IMG/VR virus record: IMGVR_UViG_3300025127_000066
Span: 1 to 48,167 of that record
Direction: 5' to 3' (one strand)
From: a virus
DNA: 48,167 nucleotides
This document shows positions 2,740-45,392 of the stretch, piece after piece. Numbering within the stretch: position 1 is the stretch's first letter; each line of letters opens with the position of its first letter. A model generated the notes under the pieces. The model was not told where the DNA came from. It did no database searches and saw only the letters and a list, made by a program, of their open reading frames with translations. The position numbers and the translations under genes were made by a program.

Positions 2740-3837
2740 TTACGCCAAGCAATAAGCCGCAGTTGCAATTGCTTCAGGACGAAGAATCTTGCGGCCATAC
2801 AGATGCATACCACGGACGATATCAGCAAAGCTGTCCGGGTCGCGATAAGTCTCAGTCTTGTTAATCTGCTCTGCAGTTGCAACAGCAGAAGAATGACCAG
2901 CCACGATTATGCCCATGTTTGACGTGTTAGGACCGCCTGTAGTTGCAGGGCCAGTACCCAGCGAAGGCAAGTTGTTAGACGAATAAACTTGGAAACCGTG
3001 AAGGTTGTTTATTACAAGACCATTCTGAAGACCAGAGCCACCAAAGTCGGAGTTCAGAAGACGTGAATCTTCATCCTTCAACACCTCAATGAAAACTGGG
3101 TCAAGAACGAGCCAGCGTCCTTGGGTATCAACATTTTGTTGGTCCATCAGACGTGACATACGTGCAATGATTTGCAGTGGGAATGCGTTACCAGCAGTGC
3201 TGGACTTAGCAGCCGTTGCGCCACCTGCACGTGGCTCAATACCAATACAGTTATTTGCAGAACCTGCAGAACCTGATGTATTAGTAAAGTCAGATGCGTC
3301 CAAAGACATAGACGCAAGCAATTCAGCACCAACAAGGTTAGCACCGCTAGAAGCAGTAGTTACAGCCTTACTACCATTAACAGAAGTGTTAACAGCGTTA
3401 GGTGCGCCATGAATGGCTGATTGCTTAAAGCCTGACAGATAGCCAAGAACTTCTTGGTCCATCTGGTCAGCGAGGCGATACGCAGCACGGTCACTTGCCA
3501 AAGATTGGAAGTTTACGTGTGAGTGTGCCTCTTCGATGTCGTCAACCTTAAATGCAAAGTAGTTAGCTTTGTCAATAGTAAGGTTGAAATCTTCATCGTC
3601 AAGGTCTTGCGGCGTGATAGTTGTACCACGTGCATATTCCTTAACGGTGATTTCGGGTTCCTTGATAATCTTAACGGAATCCCCCATCTGCGCGATTTCA
3701 CCAAAGTAGTCATTGTTGGTGATTGCTTCAACAATAGATGCCTTGCGGAAAGCAAGCTGCACCTGTTTGCTGTATATAATGGGAGAGAAATTACCATTAG
3801 GAAGATTACCATAACCACTAGCAGTAGTAAATGCCAT
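2740..3837 (-). CDS. Major capsid protein
   Basis: The 365-residue product has the character of HK97-fold capsid proteins of marine podoviruses: an N-terminal stretch with FSPIIYSKQVQLAFRK, a conserved middle with AYRLADQMDQEVLGYL, a PVFIEVLKDEDSRLLNSDFG segment and a C-terminal strand/turn region ending in Ala-rich sequence. It is preceded by scaffold and portal genes and has its own promoter and long leader. The start is taken at 3837 (MAFTTASGYG), because GGAG sits 8 bases upstream there, whereas the ATG at 3858 contains that ribosome site inside its own codons. Capsid shell subunit, likely the most abundant phage product. Confidence 0.88.
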   Translation of the reverse strand: MAFTTASGYGNLPNGNFSPIIYSKQVQLAFRKASIVEAITNNDYFGEIAQMGDSVKIIKEPEITVKEYARGTTITPQDLDDEDFNLTIDKANYFAFKVDDIEEAHSHVNFQSLASDRAAYRLADQMDQEVLGYLSGFKQSAIHGAPNAVNTSVNGSKAVTTASSGANLVGAELLASMSLDASDFTNTSGSAGSANNCIGIEPRAGGATAAKSSTAGNAFPLQIIARMSRLMDQQNVDTQGRWLVLDPVFIEVLKDEDSRLLNSDFGGSGLQNGLVINNLHGFQVYSSNNLPSLGTGPATTGGPNTSNMGIIVAGHSSAVATAEQINKTETYRDPDSFADIVRGMHLYGRKILRPEAIATAAYCLA

Positions 3838-3887
3838 GATTAAATCTCCGTTTAGCATTATTTTACAGATGCAAACTCACAAGACTA

Positions 3888-4017: not shown

Positions 4018-4045
4018 GTTATACCCATATATAACTATTTGTCAA
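4018..4045 (-). promoter_or_regulatory. Sigma70-type promoter for the capsid genes
   Basis: On the minus strand TTGACA (4040-4045) is followed after 16 bp by TATAAC (4018-4023). It overlaps the 3' end of the 2OG-oxygenase gene and points at the major capsid gene about 180 bp away. A dedicated promoter would raise capsid and decoration output over the upstream portal and scaffold genes. Predicted from sequence only. Confidence 0.65.
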
Positions 4046-4703
4046 CACTTTTTTCTTTCGGCACTTCAATAAAGTTCATATTCATGCTGAAAGACCTACG
4101 CTCACCCTTCGTGTAGAAAGGATATACGCAGTGAAATAATTGTGAAGGAAATACATAGAAGTCTCCCACTCGGGGTTTGACTACAAAGTTTGTACAGGTA
4201 TATCCTGATGGTGTACCTGATGCAAACTGTATGTGTCCATTAGCAGGATGATGGTCTTTATAGTCCTCTTCCCACTCTTCTTCTATACCTTCAGGTAGCT
4301 GCAGATAACCCACACAAGACAATCTTGACCCTGTGTGTATATGTAATGGATTGTATTCGTTTTCAAATTGTCTAACAAACCAACCTGAAATTACCTGCAG
4401 TCCATAGTTATAGTTTTCTACATCTAATGACTTTGCACCAAGAGAGTTTCGTATTTCTGAGTAGGCTTGATATTTACCTACAAATTGTCCCAAACCCTCT
4501 TGTGCAATCTTTATTATTTCATCATCAAATGCTAACTCTGCTTTTACTTTGCCTACTAAATTATCTGAATAGTCCTCTAGTCTATCCGACATTTTACTAT
4601 TCAAACTTTCGACTAACTCATCTGGCATACGGTAGTATCCCATAGTTGGGCCGAAAGGGGCAAAGAGTTCCATTTCTTTTTGTGGTTTATATATGATACT
4701 CAT
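4035..4703 (-). CDS. 2OG-Fe(II) oxygenase (PF13759-like)
   Basis: The 222-residue product fits the small 2-oxoglutarate/Fe(II)-dependent dioxygenases common in marine phages. The distinctive core is NPLHIHTGSRLSCVGYLQLP with H121-x-H123 as likely metal-binding region, then PRVGDFYVFPSQLFHCVYPF with distal H191, and R202/R203 before SFSMNMNF for 2-oxoglutarate binding. Such enzymes hydroxylate proteins, nucleic acids or small molecules; the substrate is unknown. The ATG overlaps the scaffold stop by four bases (ATGA), so it is co-translated with head genes, which makes a virion protein substrate a reasonable but unproven idea. Family confident, function open. Confidence 0.8.
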   Translation of the reverse strand: MSIIYKPQKEMELFAPFGPTMGYYRMPDELVESLNSKMSDRLEDYSDNLVGKVKAELAFDDEIIKIAQEGLGQFVGKYQAYSEIRNSLGAKSLDVENYNYGLQVISGWFVRQFENEYNPLHIHTGSRLSCVGYLQLPEGIEEEWEEDYKDHHPANGHIQFASGTPSGYTCTNFVVKPRVGDFYVFPSQLFHCVYPFYTKGERRSFSMNMNFIEVPKEKSVDK

Positions 4704-5581
4704 CGTGCAGAACCACTTACATCATATACAAACTTACCAGAGCGAATAGCTTCCATGATTTCATCGGAATGCTTTTCGTATTCTTGTGCAGACATTCTCT
4801 GTACCTCTGACTCTTTTATGTAGGTAGAAGTTTCGTCTTGTTGTGGCTTACTTCTTGAGTTTTTTGTCGATACAGATTTAGCTGCAGCTTTGTCTTCTTT
4901 AGGCTTTTCTTTTTTATTAAGACCCATATCAGCTTTATACAAGTCAATGGCTCTAGCAGCAGAACGTGCATCATTGTCATTGTCATACAGCGCATCTTGT
5001 ACCCACTTAGGCTGTTCTTCTGCCCAGTCGTGAAACTCATCACTGTCACGTATCTCACCAAAGTCAGGATGTATACGCATTAGTTCTGCTTCAGCTTTTT
5101 CTTTTGAAGCACTAGACTGCAACTCATCAATTGCTTTCATTCTTTCTTCAAGGGCAGTAGATTGCTCACGTGCCTTCTTCATAGCAATTGTTTCTACTAT
5201 CGCTGCCACATCTGGATATTCTTTTGCCCACTCTTCAATGTCTTCATCAGACTTAGGCAATTTCATTTCTTTTTGTGCAGCTTGGCTTAGTTGAGATTTA
5301 AGTGTTTCTATTTCTTTTTTAAACTCTTCAGCCTGTTGCTGTTGATGTCTACGCAAATCAGAGTAACGCTTTTTAAATGTTCGCTCTTCTGCGTTTGTAG
5401 GTTCAGCTTCTTCTGGTTCAGCAGCTTCTTGTTCTACCTCGCCCTTCTGTTCCTTCATCAACTGTTCTAGTTCTTCCTCTTCCATCTTGCGTTTTTCTTC
5501 GTTAGTGTACTTACGATTTGCAAACGCAACTTTCTTTTCGGGCTTCATTTCTTCAGCCATAATTGTAGCTTGTTCAGCCAT
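4700..5581 (-). CDS. Capsid assembly scaffolding protein
   Basis: A 293-residue, highly charged, mostly helical product with long Glu/Lys/Gln coiled-coil stretches, low aromatic content and a short ordered C-terminus (YEKHSDEIMEAIRSGKFVYD). This is typical of phage scaffolding proteins, which template procapsid assembly and are then removed. It lies between the portal side of the operon and the capsid gene. The start is placed at 5581 because GAGGAG lies 8 bases upstream; the longer frame from 5605 has no such site. The helix-turn-helix C-terminal tail would contact capsid subunits by analogy with T7 gp9 and P22 gp8. Confidence 0.78.
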   Translation of the reverse strand: MAEQATIMAEEMKPEKKVAFANRKYTNEEKRKMEEEELEQLMKEQKGEVEQEAAEPEEAEPTNAEERTFKKRYSDLRRHQQQQAEEFKKEIETLKSQLSQAAQKEMKLPKSDEDIEEWAKEYPDVAAIVETIAMKKAREQSTALEERMKAIDELQSSASKEKAEAELMRIHPDFGEIRDSDEFHDWAEEQPKWVQDALYDNDNDARSAARAIDLYKADMGLNKKEKPKEDKAAAKSVSTKNSRSKPQQDETSTYIKESEVQRMSAQEYEKHSDEIMEAIRSGKFVYDVSGSAR

Positions 5582-5663
5582 TGTACTTCTCCTCGTTGGG
5601 GCCAACCGTAGCCACGCCGGGGTGGGGGATTAGGTAGCCAACATATTGTAAGATTTAAGCCTC

Positions 5664-7610
5664 TTACGCAGCTTCTTGACGCACTTCTCTGTATCTACCG
5701 TGGACAGTGTATGTGTTGCCCTCAGTGTATACATCGAAGCTGTCACCATCAATTACGATGGATACTGTTGGTGTCATGCGGTCAATGTAATTTAAAGATG
5801 TGACCTTAACACCACTAATAGTGTCTCCTACGACTAACTGTTCTGGACGTGTCCAGTCAGCTTTACCAAGACCACCAGACTTAGCCCATACAGGGTGGTC
5901 GTTAGTTATTTCTAGTTCATTGTTGATTACGAAGTAGCCGCTACGCATATGCTTGTGCAGAACTTCTTTAACAACAGAGCCATCAATAATGTCACCGACT
6001 TTGATGTTTGTTACAAAGTCAATTACGCCGTTGAGTTTGACTTTCATGTTTTCTGTCAAGCAGTCTGTACCAGAACCAAAGCCTACATCACCTTGACCAG
6101 ACATACCTCTATCCGGTGCTGAATCACTTCTATCACCTTGGTCTCCGCTTGTGTCTGGGTCACGGTCAGGAGCAGCAGCAGCAGCAGCCTTTGCCGCCGC
6201 TACGTCAGCATCTGTAATATCCTTGCCAACCAGTCCCGCATCTCTAGCTACGTTACCTATAGCTTCAGCCGCCCTAGCTTTTCCGCTTGCCTTAACAGCT
6301 TTTTCGGCTGTCATTACGTCTCTAATTATATCTAAATCATACGTATTGTCTTTGTTGTTTAACCCTTTTCCGTATTTTTCTTCCATATAATTTATTATTT
6401 CTTCCATTTCTTTTCTGCTCGTTACAGTTTTGTCTGTAAATAAATCATTATATGTTTTTCCCTTCATTGTAAATGACGCTGTGTAAACTTCTGGCTTCCC
6501 TGCATATACACCAGCAGGTCTAATAGGCTCAACATTTGTAAGGGTAGCTATTGCATCATTTGGTAAACTAAAGCTACTAGGTTTTCCAAGCAGTTGTCCT
6601 AGACCAGATAACCCTGCATTTATTGCAGTGCCTCGTATATTACCTACATTATCAAAAGATATGTCTGCTCTAAACCCACCAGAAACTCTACCTTTGCTAT
6701 CTAAACTACCACCAAAAGCTGTAGTTGTACCTGTTGGAGAAGCGTCTTCTCTACCACCGTCATCACGAACTGTGGCTGTTTGTACGCCCGTACCTGTGGT
6801 TGGTGTAGTTTCTACTTGTTCTTCTTCTTTAGCTTGTTCTGTATAACCTTCAGGTACTACAGTCGGATTACCACTTAAATCAAATAATTGTCCTGTCTGT
6901 TTATTACGTTTAAAATTAAGTATTTGTCCCTGCTCGTTTACATAAGTAACATCCTCAAACTCTACACCCTCTGGGCCAAATCCAGTTGTGCCATACAACG
7001 TAGGCTGTTGATACTGGACTTCAGGAGTAGTTGGTGTAAACAATGTACCACCTAAACGTGGGCTGTATGCAGCAGAAGCTGCTGTCGGGGGTGTAAATGC
7101 TGTGCCTAGCGGCTGTGGTTGAGTTAAACCCATATTAGCAAATGGCTGGAACTGATTGGTAGCAGGATTATATGAACCGCCTGTAGTCGTAGCACCCATA
7201 GCTGTGGACATAGGCGTCGGAACCATACCACCTGTTTGCATTTCTAGTCCGTCATCTTCTACCTCAAGGTCATACATGTCAAACGGCAAATCATCTGGCA
7301 TAGTAGCCTCTTCGCTATTACCCATCTGACCCATAGCTTCCATCTGTGCCAAGCCTTGCTTTGCTTCTTGGCGCATACGCATTAATGTTTCAAGACCGAT
7401 GTAACGCACTACATCTGCAGGAAAAACAAACTCGCCTTCGCTTAACTGAGCAGGAATGTCATCACGTACTTCCTCACGTAATGAACCGGGTGGCACTTCG
7501 TTACCAGACACAGGGTCTGTTTTGCCACCTTCATCTTTAAGGCCACCTTCTTGAAAGCCACGTTCTACTGGCTCAAAGAGTTCCATTTGTTCTGCTATAC
7601 GTTTAGCCAT
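5664..7610 (-). CDS. Large virion-associated protein with C-terminal Hint domain
   Basis: A 648-residue protein. Residues 1-110 contain a conserved marine-phage block (VSGNEVPPGSLREEVRDDI, then GEFVFPADVVRYIGLETLM) of unknown function; 110-300 is Pro/Thr/Gln-rich and probably disordered; 300-510 is mixed. Residues 517-648 form a Hint (hedgehog/intein) domain: it begins with Cys517 (CLTENMKV, splicing block A), has T569-N-D-H572 (block B) and ends with DVYTEGNTYTVHG (block F/G-like). The intein C-terminal Asn is replaced by Gly638 and there is no extein after it, so only N-terminal self-cleavage is expected. Start at 7610 gives AAGG about 10 bases upstream; ATG 7619 is an alternative. Head or tail role inferred from its place between portal and scaffold. 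Confidence 0.72.
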   Translation of the reverse strand: MAKRIAEQMELFEPVERGFQEGGLKDEGGKTDPVSGNEVPPGSLREEVRDDIPAQLSEGEFVFPADVVRYIGLETLMRMRQEAKQGLAQMEAMGQMGNSEEATMPDDLPFDMYDLEVEDDGLEMQTGGMVPTPMSTAMGATTTGGSYNPATNQFQPFANMGLTQPQPLGTAFTPPTAASAAYSPRLGGTLFTPTTPEVQYQQPTLYGTTGFGPEGVEFEDVTYVNEQGQILNFKRNKQTGQLFDLSGNPTVVPEGYTEQAKEEEQVETTPTTGTGVQTATVRDDGGREDASPTGTTTAFGGSLDSKGRVSGGFRADISFDNVGNIRGTAINAGLSGLGQLLGKPSSFSLPNDAIATLTNVEPIRPAGVYAGKPEVYTASFTMKGKTYNDLFTDKTVTSRKEMEEIINYMEEKYGKGLNNKDNTYDLDIIRDVMTAEKAVKASGKARAAEAIGNVARDAGLVGKDITDADVAAAKAAAAAAPDRDPDTSGDQGDRSDSAPDRGMSGQGDVGFGSGTDCLTENMKVKLNGVIDFVTNIKVGDIIDGSVVKEVLHKHMRSGYFVINNELEITNDHPVWAKSGGLGKADWTRPEQLVVGDTISGVKVTSLNYIDRMTPTVSIVIDGDSFDVYTEGNTYTVHGRYREVRQEAA

Positions 7611-7812
7611 TGACTGCATCCCTTAATGTTTGGATATTACGCAACACCGCAATCGCCCCTTGCGCACGATGCATTAATACGGTGTTATCACCCTGTTCTA
7701 ATGTACGATGCTGTTGTTCAATTAAAGCATCTAAATAATTATTGAAGTGGTCCCACTGGCGTTTGTTGCTCACCAGCGGCTTGAGCTTGCTGAGTAGTTC
7801 CTTGTTGTCCAT
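7603..7812 (-). CDS. Small helical protein overlapping the portal gene end
   Basis: A 69-residue mostly helical protein starting MDNKELLSKLKPLVSNKRQW. It overlaps the last 74 bp of the portal gene in another frame and its stop overlaps the start of the Hint-domain gene. Small helical genes right after the portal are common in this phage group and are usually unnamed. The start was chosen at 7812 because the longer frame (from 7902) would be embedded far into the portal gene. Function unknown. Confidence 0.6.
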   Translation of the reverse strand: MDNKELLSKLKPLVSNKRQWDHFNNYLDALIEQQHRTLEQGDNTVLMHRAQGAIAVLRNIQTLRDAVNG

Positions 7813-42505: not shown

Positions 42506-42716
42506 TCCTACGGTTACGTATTACTTGCATCTGTTTTGCTACTCTTACTGCAGGGTTTTTGTAATCTATATTTGAACCTGATTGTTCACCCATTGAACTA
42601 CGCACAAGAAGACCGCCCCCTGTTTGATTTGTTTTTTGAGGCGCTTCTAATTCAGCAAGATCATCTAAATTAATACGATTGTATGCAGATATTGCAGGAT
42701 TATACTGTCTGGACAT
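42489..42716 (-). CDS. Small virion-region hypothetical protein
   Basis: A 75-residue protein (MSRQYNPAISAYNRINLDDL) with GGAG eight bases before the ATG. It overlaps the next gene by 17 bp. Hydrophilic, no motif. It is in the operon with internal virion proteins and may be a small structural component. Confidence 0.5.
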   Translation of the reverse strand: MSRQYNPAISAYNRINLDDLAELEAPQKTNQTGGGLLVRSSMGEQSGSNIDYKNPAVRVAKQMQVIRNRRNEINA

Positions 42717-45186
42717 TATGCTTTCTCCGTTTGTTTTCTACTACCATATCCATCAACTTTTTAGTTGCCCATTTTAATGGTGGTGCTTTAGATATTAGTT
42801 TAGCATACGATTGCCCATGTTTAGTATATAGTTTCTTAAACCATTTAGGGGCATCATACTGTAACCATATGCGGAATACAAACCACTCAGAGTTTTGTTT
42901 ACCATATACTTCTCTTGCAACCCAACACATAATAAGAGCAGATCCAAGTGTGCCAATCAAACCACCAATAGCACTACCTGCTGCAGTCTTACTTGCTGCA
43001 CTTGATGCAGCTTGAGATGTTTTGGCGTCTAGTTCTGCAATAGCCATAGCACTGTATCTGTCTAGTTCACTTTCTGCAGATGTCCATGCCCACTCCATAG
43101 TGTCTGCATAGTAACTCCACAAGTTGTTGTATGCTTGTTTGCTTATATCAAGCACGTTGTTAGCATTTATTTCATTCGCCCTGTTGATAGCAGCGGTATC
43201 TGCTGTAGCTATTTGCTTACGCCACTGTGCATTTGCTTGTGCAATCACTAACTGGTTCTGTGCGTTAAACTGATCACGTTGGTTGTTTAGTTCTGCGTTG
43301 AAACGCTCAATGGTATTTTCTTGACCTGCGTTAAACTGTGACTGTGCATTTTGTTGTGACGCATTAAACTGTGCAGTTGAACTTGCAAGGTTAGCAAAGA
43401 ACTGATCTACCTGATTTTGTGAAGATGCGTTAAACTGCCGTGCAGCATTTTCTGCAGCCTGATCTGTAAAAAGTGACTGCACTCTCTGCTGTGCCTTAAA
43501 CATATCTGTCTGCTGCTGATTAGACAAGTTAGCCATATCCATCTGCAAGAAAGACTGTGCGTTTTGCACTGCAGCTTGTTGTCTGTTGTTAAGATTAGCA
43601 GCATCTAGTTGTGCTAGTGCAGCAGCCTCTGACATAACAAGAGCTTGATTGTTAGACAGATTATTTAAGTTCATTGTATTGGCAGCACGTGAGTTTTCTA
43701 ACTGCACCTGTTGCTCTGCTGTAAAGTTCTGGTTGGCAATATCACTAATCTTACTAGCGTTCATTACCTTTGCTTGGAACGCCTGATCAAACTCCATGCC
43801 AGCAAACTTAGCACGTTGCTCTGCAGCAAGCATTGCTGATTGCTGTCTGTTAGATAAATTTTGTGCTTCAAACTTAGCTACTGTTTGCGCATCTGCCATT
43901 GCAATAGGCATTGCTGATTCCATAGCAGCCTGTACAATAGCTTGTCCTGCCATAGAGGATGCACCCAGACCACGTGCAGCCATCGCTGCTGTAGCACTAC
44001 GCATAGCCCCTGCAGCCCATGCTGGTGTAGCACCACCTTGGAACTGTTGCATTAAGCCATCAAGTTGTTGTGCCACCATAGTCTGTTGACTTGGATTAGC
44101 TGTAGCTGCTGCAGCCTGTGTCTGTGCAGTTACCTGTGCTGCTTTTGTAGCATCTACACCTGTGCCTGTTACAAGTTCACCAGCCTGTATCTGTCGTTGT
44201 ATAGGATTGTTTATAAGAGTGGCATTACCCTGTGCTGCTTGTAGGTTACCTACTGAAGACGCCGTTTGCTGTGCAGCGGTAACTTGTGAGCGAGGGTCAT
44301 TAGGGTCTGTCTGCGCAGCTTGTGTAGCTTGTAAAGCAGAGTCTATACCTGCCGCTGCTGTTGTTGCTTGCATAGTATTTGCAGCAGTTTGTTGTTGAAC
44401 AGCAGCCTGTGCTGTTGTAGCTTGTGCAGGGTTTATATTTACAGTGGCACCTGTAAGTTGTCCAGTGCCAGCAGCTATTTCTTGACTAGGATCAAAGCCT
44501 ATCTTTTCTGTCATAGTAACCCCGCCTTGTGGTAAACCAGGATTATATATTTGTTCTGTTGTAAATGCGGCTATGCCCGGTGTAGTTGCTGTTTGTGTCA
44601 CTGGGTTGCCTTGAGCGTCTAATACTGGATTACCACTAGCATCTAACACAGGAATTTGTGTTGTTTGTGATGTTGTGGGTTGTGTAATTACAGGTGCAGT
44701 TTGAGTTCCTGCGGTAGAAACATTAGCACGATTGCCACTACGAGGTTGAACCGGGGAGCCTGTAGCACCCACTGTCATGCCGCCAAAACCCGGCGCAGTA
44801 AGTTGTGTGCTGCCTTGTGGAGTGGGTTGAGGTCGTGTAGTGCCTGTTTGAGTAAATGGTATTGCACCAGTGCCGGGTACAGCAGTGCTTGTAATTTGAA
44901 CACCACCTAACATTCCTCCAAAACCCGGTGTGGGTGGTTGTACTTGTTGCACTGTTTGTGATGGGGGAGAACTGCCCGGAGGAGTTACCACACCGCCACC
45001 AGTTTGCATCTTAACTACACCACCCCGTGCCATATTAACTGCAGCACGTGTGTATTTATTCATTTGTTCCTGACGCTGTGGATCTTCTTCAAGAAAAGAT
45101 TGGAACTCGTTCATGTTTCCTTGATATCCCATAGCCTTTGCTATTTTATTCATAGCTTCAGGTTTAAATCCTTTAAATATAGCCAT
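42700..45186 (-). CDS. Q/A/N-rich virion protein with conserved C-terminal module
   Basis: An 828-residue protein. Residues 1-60 include FKGFKPEAMNKIAKAMGYQG; 60-250 is Thr/Pro/Gly-rich; 250-640 is a long helical zone of Ala, Gln and Asn with repeated motifs such as NLNNRQQAA, NLSNQQQTD, QFNASSQNQ and QFNAGQENT, which recur in register as in filamentous internal proteins. A hydrophobic Gly-rich segment (AAGSAIGGLIGTLGSALIMC) is followed by CWVAREVYGKQNSEWFVFRI, a C-terminal module shared by virion proteins of many phages. ATG 45186 overlaps the upstream stop (TAATG). Probably part of the ejection or tail apparatus. Confidence 0.6.
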   Translation of the reverse strand: MAIFKGFKPEAMNKIAKAMGYQGNMNEFQSFLEEDPQRQEQMNKYTRAAVNMARGGVVKMQTGGGVVTPPGSSPPSQTVQQVQPPTPGFGGMLGGVQITSTAVPGTGAIPFTQTGTTRPQPTPQGSTQLTAPGFGGMTVGATGSPVQPRSGNRANVSTAGTQTAPVITQPTTSQTTQIPVLDASGNPVLDAQGNPVTQTATTPGIAAFTTEQIYNPGLPQGGVTMTEKIGFDPSQEIAAGTGQLTGATVNINPAQATTAQAAVQQQTAANTMQATTAAAGIDSALQATQAAQTDPNDPRSQVTAAQQTASSVGNLQAAQGNATLINNPIQRQIQAGELVTGTGVDATKAAQVTAQTQAAAATANPSQQTMVAQQLDGLMQQFQGGATPAWAAGAMRSATAAMAARGLGASSMAGQAIVQAAMESAMPIAMADAQTVAKFEAQNLSNRQQSAMLAAEQRAKFAGMEFDQAFQAKVMNASKISDIANQNFTAEQQVQLENSRAANTMNLNNLSNNQALVMSEAAALAQLDAANLNNRQQAAVQNAQSFLQMDMANLSNQQQTDMFKAQQRVQSLFTDQAAENAARQFNASSQNQVDQFFANLASSTAQFNASQQNAQSQFNAGQENTIERFNAELNNQRDQFNAQNQLVIAQANAQWRKQIATADTAAINRANEINANNVLDISKQAYNNLWSYYADTMEWAWTSAESELDRYSAMAIAELDAKTSQAASSAASKTAAGSAIGGLIGTLGSALIMCWVAREVYGKQNSEWFVFRIWLQYDAPKWFKKLYTKHGQSYAKLISKAPPLKWATKKLMDMVVENKRRKHNVQTV

Positions 45187-45392
45187 TACCCAACCCCTAC
45201 AAGTACAGTGCCAGCCAGTCCTATTATAGTTACTGTAGATGCCATAATCATAGCTTCTAAACGCCATAGACGTTTATCAACACTTTCTAATTTATCATTC
45301 ATCATTTGATAACGGACAGCACATTCTTTTTCGTGTGCGTCTAATTCCATTTGAACTTTAAGTTCTGGCTCTAAAGATTGTGTCAGCTTCAT
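45186..45392 (-). CDS. Coiled-coil membrane peptide (XhlA-like)
   Basis: A 68-residue protein with a charged coiled coil (EPELKVQMELDAHEKECAVR, DKLESVDKRLWRLEAMIMAS) and one C-terminal membrane segment (STVTIIGLAGTVLVGV). The layout recalls hemolysin XhlA-type phage accessory proteins that assist holin or bind the membrane. It is the first gene after the promoter at 45420-45448 and is joined to the next by TAATG. Confidence 0.5.
   Translation of the reverse strand: MKLTQSLEPELKVQMELDAHEKECAVRYQMMNDKLESVDKRLWRLEAMIMASTVTIIGLAGTVLVGVG

Follow-up and report, generated by a model that had tools for sequence, protein, structure and literature searches.

Type B BIL domains lack block G and cleave without splicing, and in inteins the N-S acyl shift is served by the threonine and histidine of block B together with the aspartate of block F (F:4) (PMC4031507). 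Hedgehog proteins carry a C-terminal Hint domain that uses the N-S acyl shift only and does not splice (PMC7664689), and Vint, likewise C-terminal, is Hint-like and has motifs A and B (PMC2362128). In phage fibres, Peptidase_S74 chaperones remove themselves from the fibre (PMC10579305). The literature on phage Hint domains that we found deals with genuine inteins, located in TerL or ribonucleotide reductase; for C-terminal Hint proteins of the kind present in Phage NCTB, no role is described in the literature searched.

Here we describe a phage gene whose product ends in a Hint module predicted to retain the first step of this chemistry and to have lost the splicing end. The window, that is, the whole stretch of DNA analysed, is the 48,167-nucleotide IMG/VR record IMGVR_UViG_3300025127_000066. 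The gene lies on its minus strand at 5664-7619 and encodes 651 amino acids counted from the first ATG. Residues are numbered from this ATG (7619); an alternative start, the ATG at 7610, shifts them by three, and the Cys517, Thr569 and His572 of the preliminary description are present as Cys520, Thr572 and His575 in the 651-residue numbering. The features of the gene and its surroundings are as follows.

5664..7619, minus strand: whole gene, with an N-terminal conserved domain, a low-complexity middle, a linker and a C-terminal Hint module (from sequence)
7302..7577, minus strand: N-terminal domain, residues 15-106, ...VRDDIPAQLSEGEFVFPADVVRYIGLE..., conserved in HMO-2011-type phages
6063..6182, minus strand: Gly/Ser/Asp-rich linker, residues 480-519, ending ...GFGSGTD right before Cys520 (from sequence)
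5667..6062, minus strand: Hint module, residues 520-651, up to the C-terminus (predicted from alignment, Pfam, AlphaFold2 and Foldseek)
6060..6062, minus strand: Cys520, block A nucleophile, conserved in 44/44 and the sole cysteine of the protein
5943..5951, minus strand: H557-x-R559 pair upstream of block B, 44/44, particular to this Hint family
5895..5906, minus strand: block B, T572-N-D-H575 (T in 37, S in 7; N, D and H in 44/44)
5733..5735, minus strand: Asp629, putative block F aspartate (F:4), D in 37 and N in 7, assigned by motif
5697..5705, minus strand: V639-H640-G641 turn (KlbA alignment, AlphaFold2 model, tail survey)
5667..5696, minus strand: C-terminal tail RYREVRQEAA, 10 residues long in 40/44 relatives, where the model ends with low pLDDT
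7739..9874, minus strand: portal gene, matching PHROG 332 (head-tail adaptor, 9.6e-82) and PHROG 1216 (portal, 1.7e-37)
4700..5605, minus strand: scaffold-like gene, matching PHROG families of unknown function; 'scaffold' from position alone
2740..3858, minus strand: major capsid protein gene, matching PHROG 267 (3.1e-66)

The gene is flanked by the portal and scaffold-like genes, after which come genes for a 2OG-Fe(II) oxygenase (4035-4703, minus strand, between the scaffold-like and major capsid genes) and the major capsid protein. It had initially been placed between portal and scaffold. The portal is indeed adjacent, identified by PHROG and by Pfam (SU10_portal, 6.6e-27), whereas the scaffold assignment falls back on position, its PHROG families having no assigned function. 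Relatives among named phages are Puniceispirillum phage HMO-2011, the CRP roseophages and one environmental podovirus, with similarity confined to a stretch within the N-terminal ~160 residues; these relatives point to an HMO-2011-type marine podovirus as the source. The N-terminal domain was found in 14 phage records, shows 36 invariant columns in 20 sequences, and is encoded by 588 of the 600 stretches matched in our sampling of this domain family.

The Hint domain is present in many marine viral contigs: two viral scans returned 80 loci, parsing of which yielded 74 viral ORFs, and the non-redundant Hint alignment comprises 44 sequences. Cys520, His557, Arg559, Asn573, Asp574 and His575 are among the residues invariant in all 44; position 572 is threonine in 37 and serine in seven, and position 629 is aspartate in 37 and asparagine in seven. 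The Hint-domain family Vint of Pfam is matched by every member (best E 1.2e-8), Intein_splicing by 24 of the 44 (best E 7.4e-5) and Pfam Hint by two (best E 0.063). The window copy on its own matches Vint weakly, at E 0.038-0.051, scoring 14.2 bits against a 27-bit cut-off. The four best PDB matches of the profile, with E-values from 0.013 to 0.2, are a Vint protein (8r2c, E 0.013), a BIL domain (2lwy, E 0.016) and two inteins.

Structure prediction agrees with these comparisons. On a narrow alignment of 22 sequences, AlphaFold reached a pLDDT of 50.6, whereas the 44-sequence alignment gave a confident AlphaFold2 model of the module (pLDDT 90.4, pTM 0.83). The best Foldseek matches of this model in the PDB are all inteins or intein-like domains, led by gp41-1, BIL2, class 3 inteins and a Clostridium BIL domain (E 9.2e-5 at best), and the top BFVD matches include phage proteins labelled Hint. 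The model thus bears out the C-terminal Hint domain that had been proposed from the letters of the sequence, and predicts a Hint fold for the last 132 residues, which constitute the module. Judged by sequence, the combination of a cysteine nucleophile, a block B T/S-N-D-H and VHG lies far beyond chance.

What follows block F sets the module apart from splicing domains. HN was found after block F in none of the 44 relatives, and in every complete relative a stop codon closes the module, leaving no C-extein and no +1 Cys, Ser or Thr. This stop stands at a near-constant position about ten residues past VHG: exactly ten residues follow the VHG glycine in 40 of 44 sequences, most of these tails ending in AA or AS, and two fibre copies have only two residues beyond the glycine of the turn. 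Nor is the module inserted within a conserved host protein, since it is always C-terminal. Because both HN and C-extein are absent, splicing in cis is excluded, as the preliminary description had stated. Its further proposal, that VHG replaces the HN of inteins, is rejected. When the module is aligned with the KlbA intein by phmmer, 'tvhgr' falls opposite 'yiagk' (chain residues 163-167 of 186), a segment that lies ahead of the C-terminal end of KlbA, and in the AlphaFold2 model the last strand of good confidence ends with VHG, the later residues, where HN would sit, being modelled with low confidence. Alignment and model therefore place VHG at the turn before a missing last strand, and not as an equivalent of HN.

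As blocks A to F are all there and the loss is limited to the last strand and its HN, the module might instead be the N-terminal half of a split intein, spliced in trans to a C-terminal piece with HN and extein encoded elsewhere. We consider this highly improbable. The near-constant stop some ten residues after VHG and the conserved AA or AS ending argue against it, as does the absence of a partner ORF by pattern: no ORF of the window, which is not a complete genome, has HN followed by Cys, Ser or Thr within its first ~50 residues.

Among described Hint domains, type B BILs (bacterial intein-like domains) offer a close likeness, having Cys1 and block B but neither block G nor an insertion of the intein kind. 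However, the phage module differs from them in being strictly C-terminal on virion-region proteins, with a fixed tail of about ten residues and the invariant H-x-R. It differs from type A BILs in lacking a C-terminal HN. The eukaryotic VWA-Vint domain (PF14623) is the best Pfam match of all 44 members, yet no VWA match was found in the window protein or in four other carriers scanned. With Hog the module shares a C-terminal Hint domain and, by prediction, first-step chemistry, but no clear sequence kinship beyond the fold and no sterol context. The closest solved folds are those of class 1 and class 3 mini-inteins (gp41-1, DnaB), at TM about 0.6-0.75, which unlike the phage module have HN, a C-extein and a +1 nucleophile. 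In contrast to PT-HINT, there is no toxin domain and nothing downstream of the phage module. A phage parallel is provided by the 'intein domain' tail proteins of Phage NCTB, where a C-terminal Hint follows Gly-rich or collagen-like repeats in tail-region genes; these copies, however, end in HN and a short tail. Phage NCTB (L086) has three nearby tail-region Hint genes, one of them apparently without the block A cysteine.

The distribution of cysteine in these proteins is unusual. The 651-residue protein has no cysteine besides Cys520, and among 59 complete relatives there are 37, one as long as 1452 residues, whose sole cysteine is that of block A. In the 58 HMO-type relatives without any module, there is no cysteine at all across 42,734 residues. 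Together these counts imply that the family avoids cysteine, its exceptions lying mainly where a C-terminal module begins. The Hint module always lies downstream of a Gly/Ser/Asp-rich linker: in 57 relatives, the 40 residues before the cysteine are 56.7% G, S, D or N, against 29.6% in the protein bodies. The residue immediately preceding the cysteine is variable (D, I, A, W, L, V, E or K). At one locus (L065:7845-8369), the frame is broken exactly at the junction of linker and Hint module, where the upstream protein would stop at the linker; the break may be a true loss or reflect faulty assembly.

The module is under purifying selection, with a median dN/dS of 0.14 at dS near 0.9, and the relatives differ by synonymous changes at the key positions, where the cysteine is encoded by TGT or TGC and both histidine codons are used. 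Selection of this strength, such synonymous changes at Cys and His codons, and about 60 distinct intact copies in a constant C-terminal place on unrelated proteins make it very hard to regard the module as a decaying intein remnant or a functionless chance resemblance, an idea that the sub-threshold Vint match of the window copy (E 0.038-0.051) might otherwise encourage. A purely structural role is less remote, though we think it doubtful. Many phage fibres bear non-catalytic C-terminal domains, and the module could act in trimerisation, as a chaperone or in adhesion, with its cysteine serving a disulfide, a metal or packing in a role common to all Cys-start modules at this C-terminal place; other modules found at the same place, the helical-looking CT and CFI-box modules, likewise start with cysteine and are not known as enzymes. 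Yet the joint retention of the cysteine, T/S-x-x-H and the block F aspartate, along with the frequency of single-cysteine proteins, is what chemistry predicts and not what a fold predicts, and a second type of Hint at the same place has also retained its GSH motif.

The Hint module is found on three kinds of protein: the HMO-type protein described here, DUF4815 proteins and a collagen-repeat fibre. The DUF4815 carriers have 1330-1660 residues (Pfam DUF4815, 1.4e-47 and 2.7e-51), and in annotated phages the DUF4815 gene comes after a baseplate wedge gene. The fibre carrier has 2089 residues, with collagen repeats and a Phage-tail_3 domain. The bodies of HMO-type and DUF4815 proteins are unrelated (best local E 0.34), yet the Hint module and 12 linker residues are 83% identical between an HMO-type copy (L036) and a DUF4815-type copy (L045). 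In the Hint tree, three DUF4815 copies are nested among HMO-type copies, and the well-supported branches cannot be reconciled with fewer than two carrier changes for the HMO-type label. By these sequence comparisons, the Hint module is an exchangeable C-terminal cassette common to unrelated virion-region proteins. The one relative from bacterial genomes lies on a contig labelled Opitutia (L081), which is probably viral. At nine loci (L004, L036, L040, L041, L047, L050, L051, L052 and L055) the gene is split, the N-terminal domain forming a separate upstream ORF that overlaps the Hint-bearing one. Two further relatives (L031 and L033, 1366-1455 residues) have an additional N-terminal part of ~700 residues with a VFHG motif; L033 has no Pfam match.

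A Hint query found no match in the records of the cultured HMO-2011 and CRP phages. Where the C-termini of these relatives were inspected (that of CRP-345 lies beyond the stretch compared), they carry other modules, basic tails or no module. More generally, in both the HMO-type and DUF4815 families the C-terminal slot, when not occupied by this Hint module, holds another module, a basic tail or nothing. The other modules are the CFI-box, helical 'CT' modules, a second Hint type and one Peptidase_S74. Sampling of the N-terminal domain family covered 80 loci, of which 68 complete ORFs were classed. A Lys-rich GGL tail ends 47 of these, four have Cys-start modules, three have Hint, three are split or short, and the remaining 11 show no recognised module. 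Most HMO-type relatives (within L121-L199) end in a Lys-rich GGLASKK...KVKKMKRGGLASKK tail with zero cysteine. Complete ORFs of the DUF4815 family carry CT-like Cys-start modules (22), a CFI-box (4), Hint-A (5), the second Hint type (7) or a weak Peptidase_S74 (1), and the rest have linker ends (7), long C-termini (21) or another ending (1). Both samples are best-hit lists sorted by ad hoc patterns, with several loci near-copies of each other, and are not estimates of prevalence; the sorting of the DUF4815 sample also put some HMO-type proteins (L147, L179, CRP1 and CRP13) in the 'long' class by length, and for the HMO-type family we relied on its own sampling and on the inspected C-termini.

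Several occupants of the slot are common to HMO-type and DUF4815 proteins, with identities between the two of 73% for the VCTEMYRQ module, 52% for HCCTA, 36% for the CFI-box and 61% for Hint. The CFI-box of ctYwJ313 was assigned by NCBIfam (CFI-box-CTERM, NF041770; E 2.2e-15). The CFI-box and CT modules share with the Hint module the same slot, a similar linker and a cysteine start, but they are short and have no detected relationship to Hint. The CT subgroups are interlinked, with hhalign probabilities of 89-96 for four pairs, and no relationship between CFI-box and CT modules was detected. The second Hint type (CFLAGT...GSH) matches Hom_end_hint at E 3.7e-5; its fuller pattern, CFLAGTxVxMADG...GSH, is seen on the DUF4815 proteins L201, L203, L208, L222, L228, L241 and L254. 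The Peptidase_S74 case (L211, a DUF4815 relative) is a weak match under the Pfam cut-off. Like the Hint module, S74 is C-terminal, and in phage fibres it removes itself, but it has a different fold and cuts after a serine. Elsewhere in the window, an 855-residue protein (42700-45267, minus strand), which has a relative in HMO-2011 at 60% identity, also ends in a Cys-start module, placed after an Ala/Gly-rich stretch (LIMCWVAREVYG...). Its Cys781 is the sole cysteine if translation begins at M28 and not at the first ATG, and no relationship of this CWVAREVYG module to the CT modules was detected.

These occupants could be viewed together. Several virion proteins of tailed phages, unrelated to each other, might have a standard cassette slot as their C-terminus, in which self-processing or self-ligating modules (the two Hint types, CT and perhaps the CFI-box), swapped between phage families, act through a cysteine at the linker junction. 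As stated in this general form we regard the proposal as unlikely.

For the Hint module itself, sequence and model suggest that it probably trims or attaches virion proteins. The preliminary description had likewise named self-cleavage or ligation as possibilities, which might give timed release or covalent attachment of a virion component. We speculate, tentatively and at a little less than an even chance, that it is a C-terminal self-processing cassette in which a thioester at Cys520 leads to detachment of the putative virion protein by hydrolysis. The module would fold at the end of the chain and activate Cys520, and the Asp519-Cys520 bond would then be converted to a thioester by an N-S acyl shift, assisted by Thr572, His575 and Asp629. 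With HN, C-extein and +1 nucleophile all lacking, water or a small thiol would resolve the thioester. Residues 1-519, with their flexible linker end, would be freed from the 132-residue module; the latter would either help in folding or assembly and then be discarded, or act as a switch for release. In mechanism the module would resemble a type B BIL domain or the opening half of Hedgehog processing. The outcome would be comparable to that of the self-removed intramolecular chaperones of phage fibres.

Several observations support this cleavage reading. The residues of the thioester step are kept, while the splicing end is lost, in all 44 sequences; Cys520 is the sole cysteine, and relatives without a module have none; and the dN/dS of 0.14 indicates purifying selection. 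In both families, module-less relatives end at the linker, as expected of cleavage products, and a chaperone of the self-removing type appears once in the slot, in the weak S74 match. The variable residue before the cysteine and the existence of inactive Hint folds speak against it. Furthermore, simple hydrolysis does not account for the conserved ten-residue tail and the H-x-R pair, and the Lys-rich GGLASKK tail in 47 of the 68 HMO-type ORFs suggests, from sequence, a C-terminus used for binding rather than one that is disposable.

These latter features lend plausibility to the main rival, transfer, in which residues 1-519 are handed over from the thioester to a second molecule, at an amine or thiol either of a neighbouring virion subunit or of a molecule of the host surface, much as Hedgehog does with cholesterol. 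The module would then be a ligase cassette for covalent anchoring. Transfer needs the same conserved residues as cleavage; other occupants of the slot (the Lys-rich GGLASKK tail and the small Cys-start modules) resemble attachment elements, and the invariant H557-x-R559 and fixed-length tail could form an acceptor site. On the other hand, there is no known acceptor, a common one would be needed across podovirus-type, myovirus-type and fibre proteins, and hydrolysis takes fewer assumptions. We consider transfer possible but rather improbable. Our literature search found no experiments on these proteins, and the paper on HMO-2011-type phages contains no proteomics or mass spectrometry text.

The Hint cassette is the slot module whose chemistry is predictable, and it comes with a natural comparison set, consisting of one module in one slot on several unrelated carriers, together with relatives that lack it, which allows a direct test. 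Through it, the CFI-box and the other C-terminal modules that start with cysteine, for which this analysis turned up no function, become open to a first mechanistic approach. A compact Hint domain predicted to keep the thioester step without the splicing end may also find use in biotechnology. If the slot reading is true, it would represent a general and undescribed route to trimming or covalently attaching virion proteins. As judged from sequence and model, the module is probably a Hint cassette that does not splice and has been domesticated on virion-region proteins of phages. If active, it would bring the chemistry of inteins to the structural gene region of abundant marine phages, as a domesticated form of processing and not as a selfish insertion.
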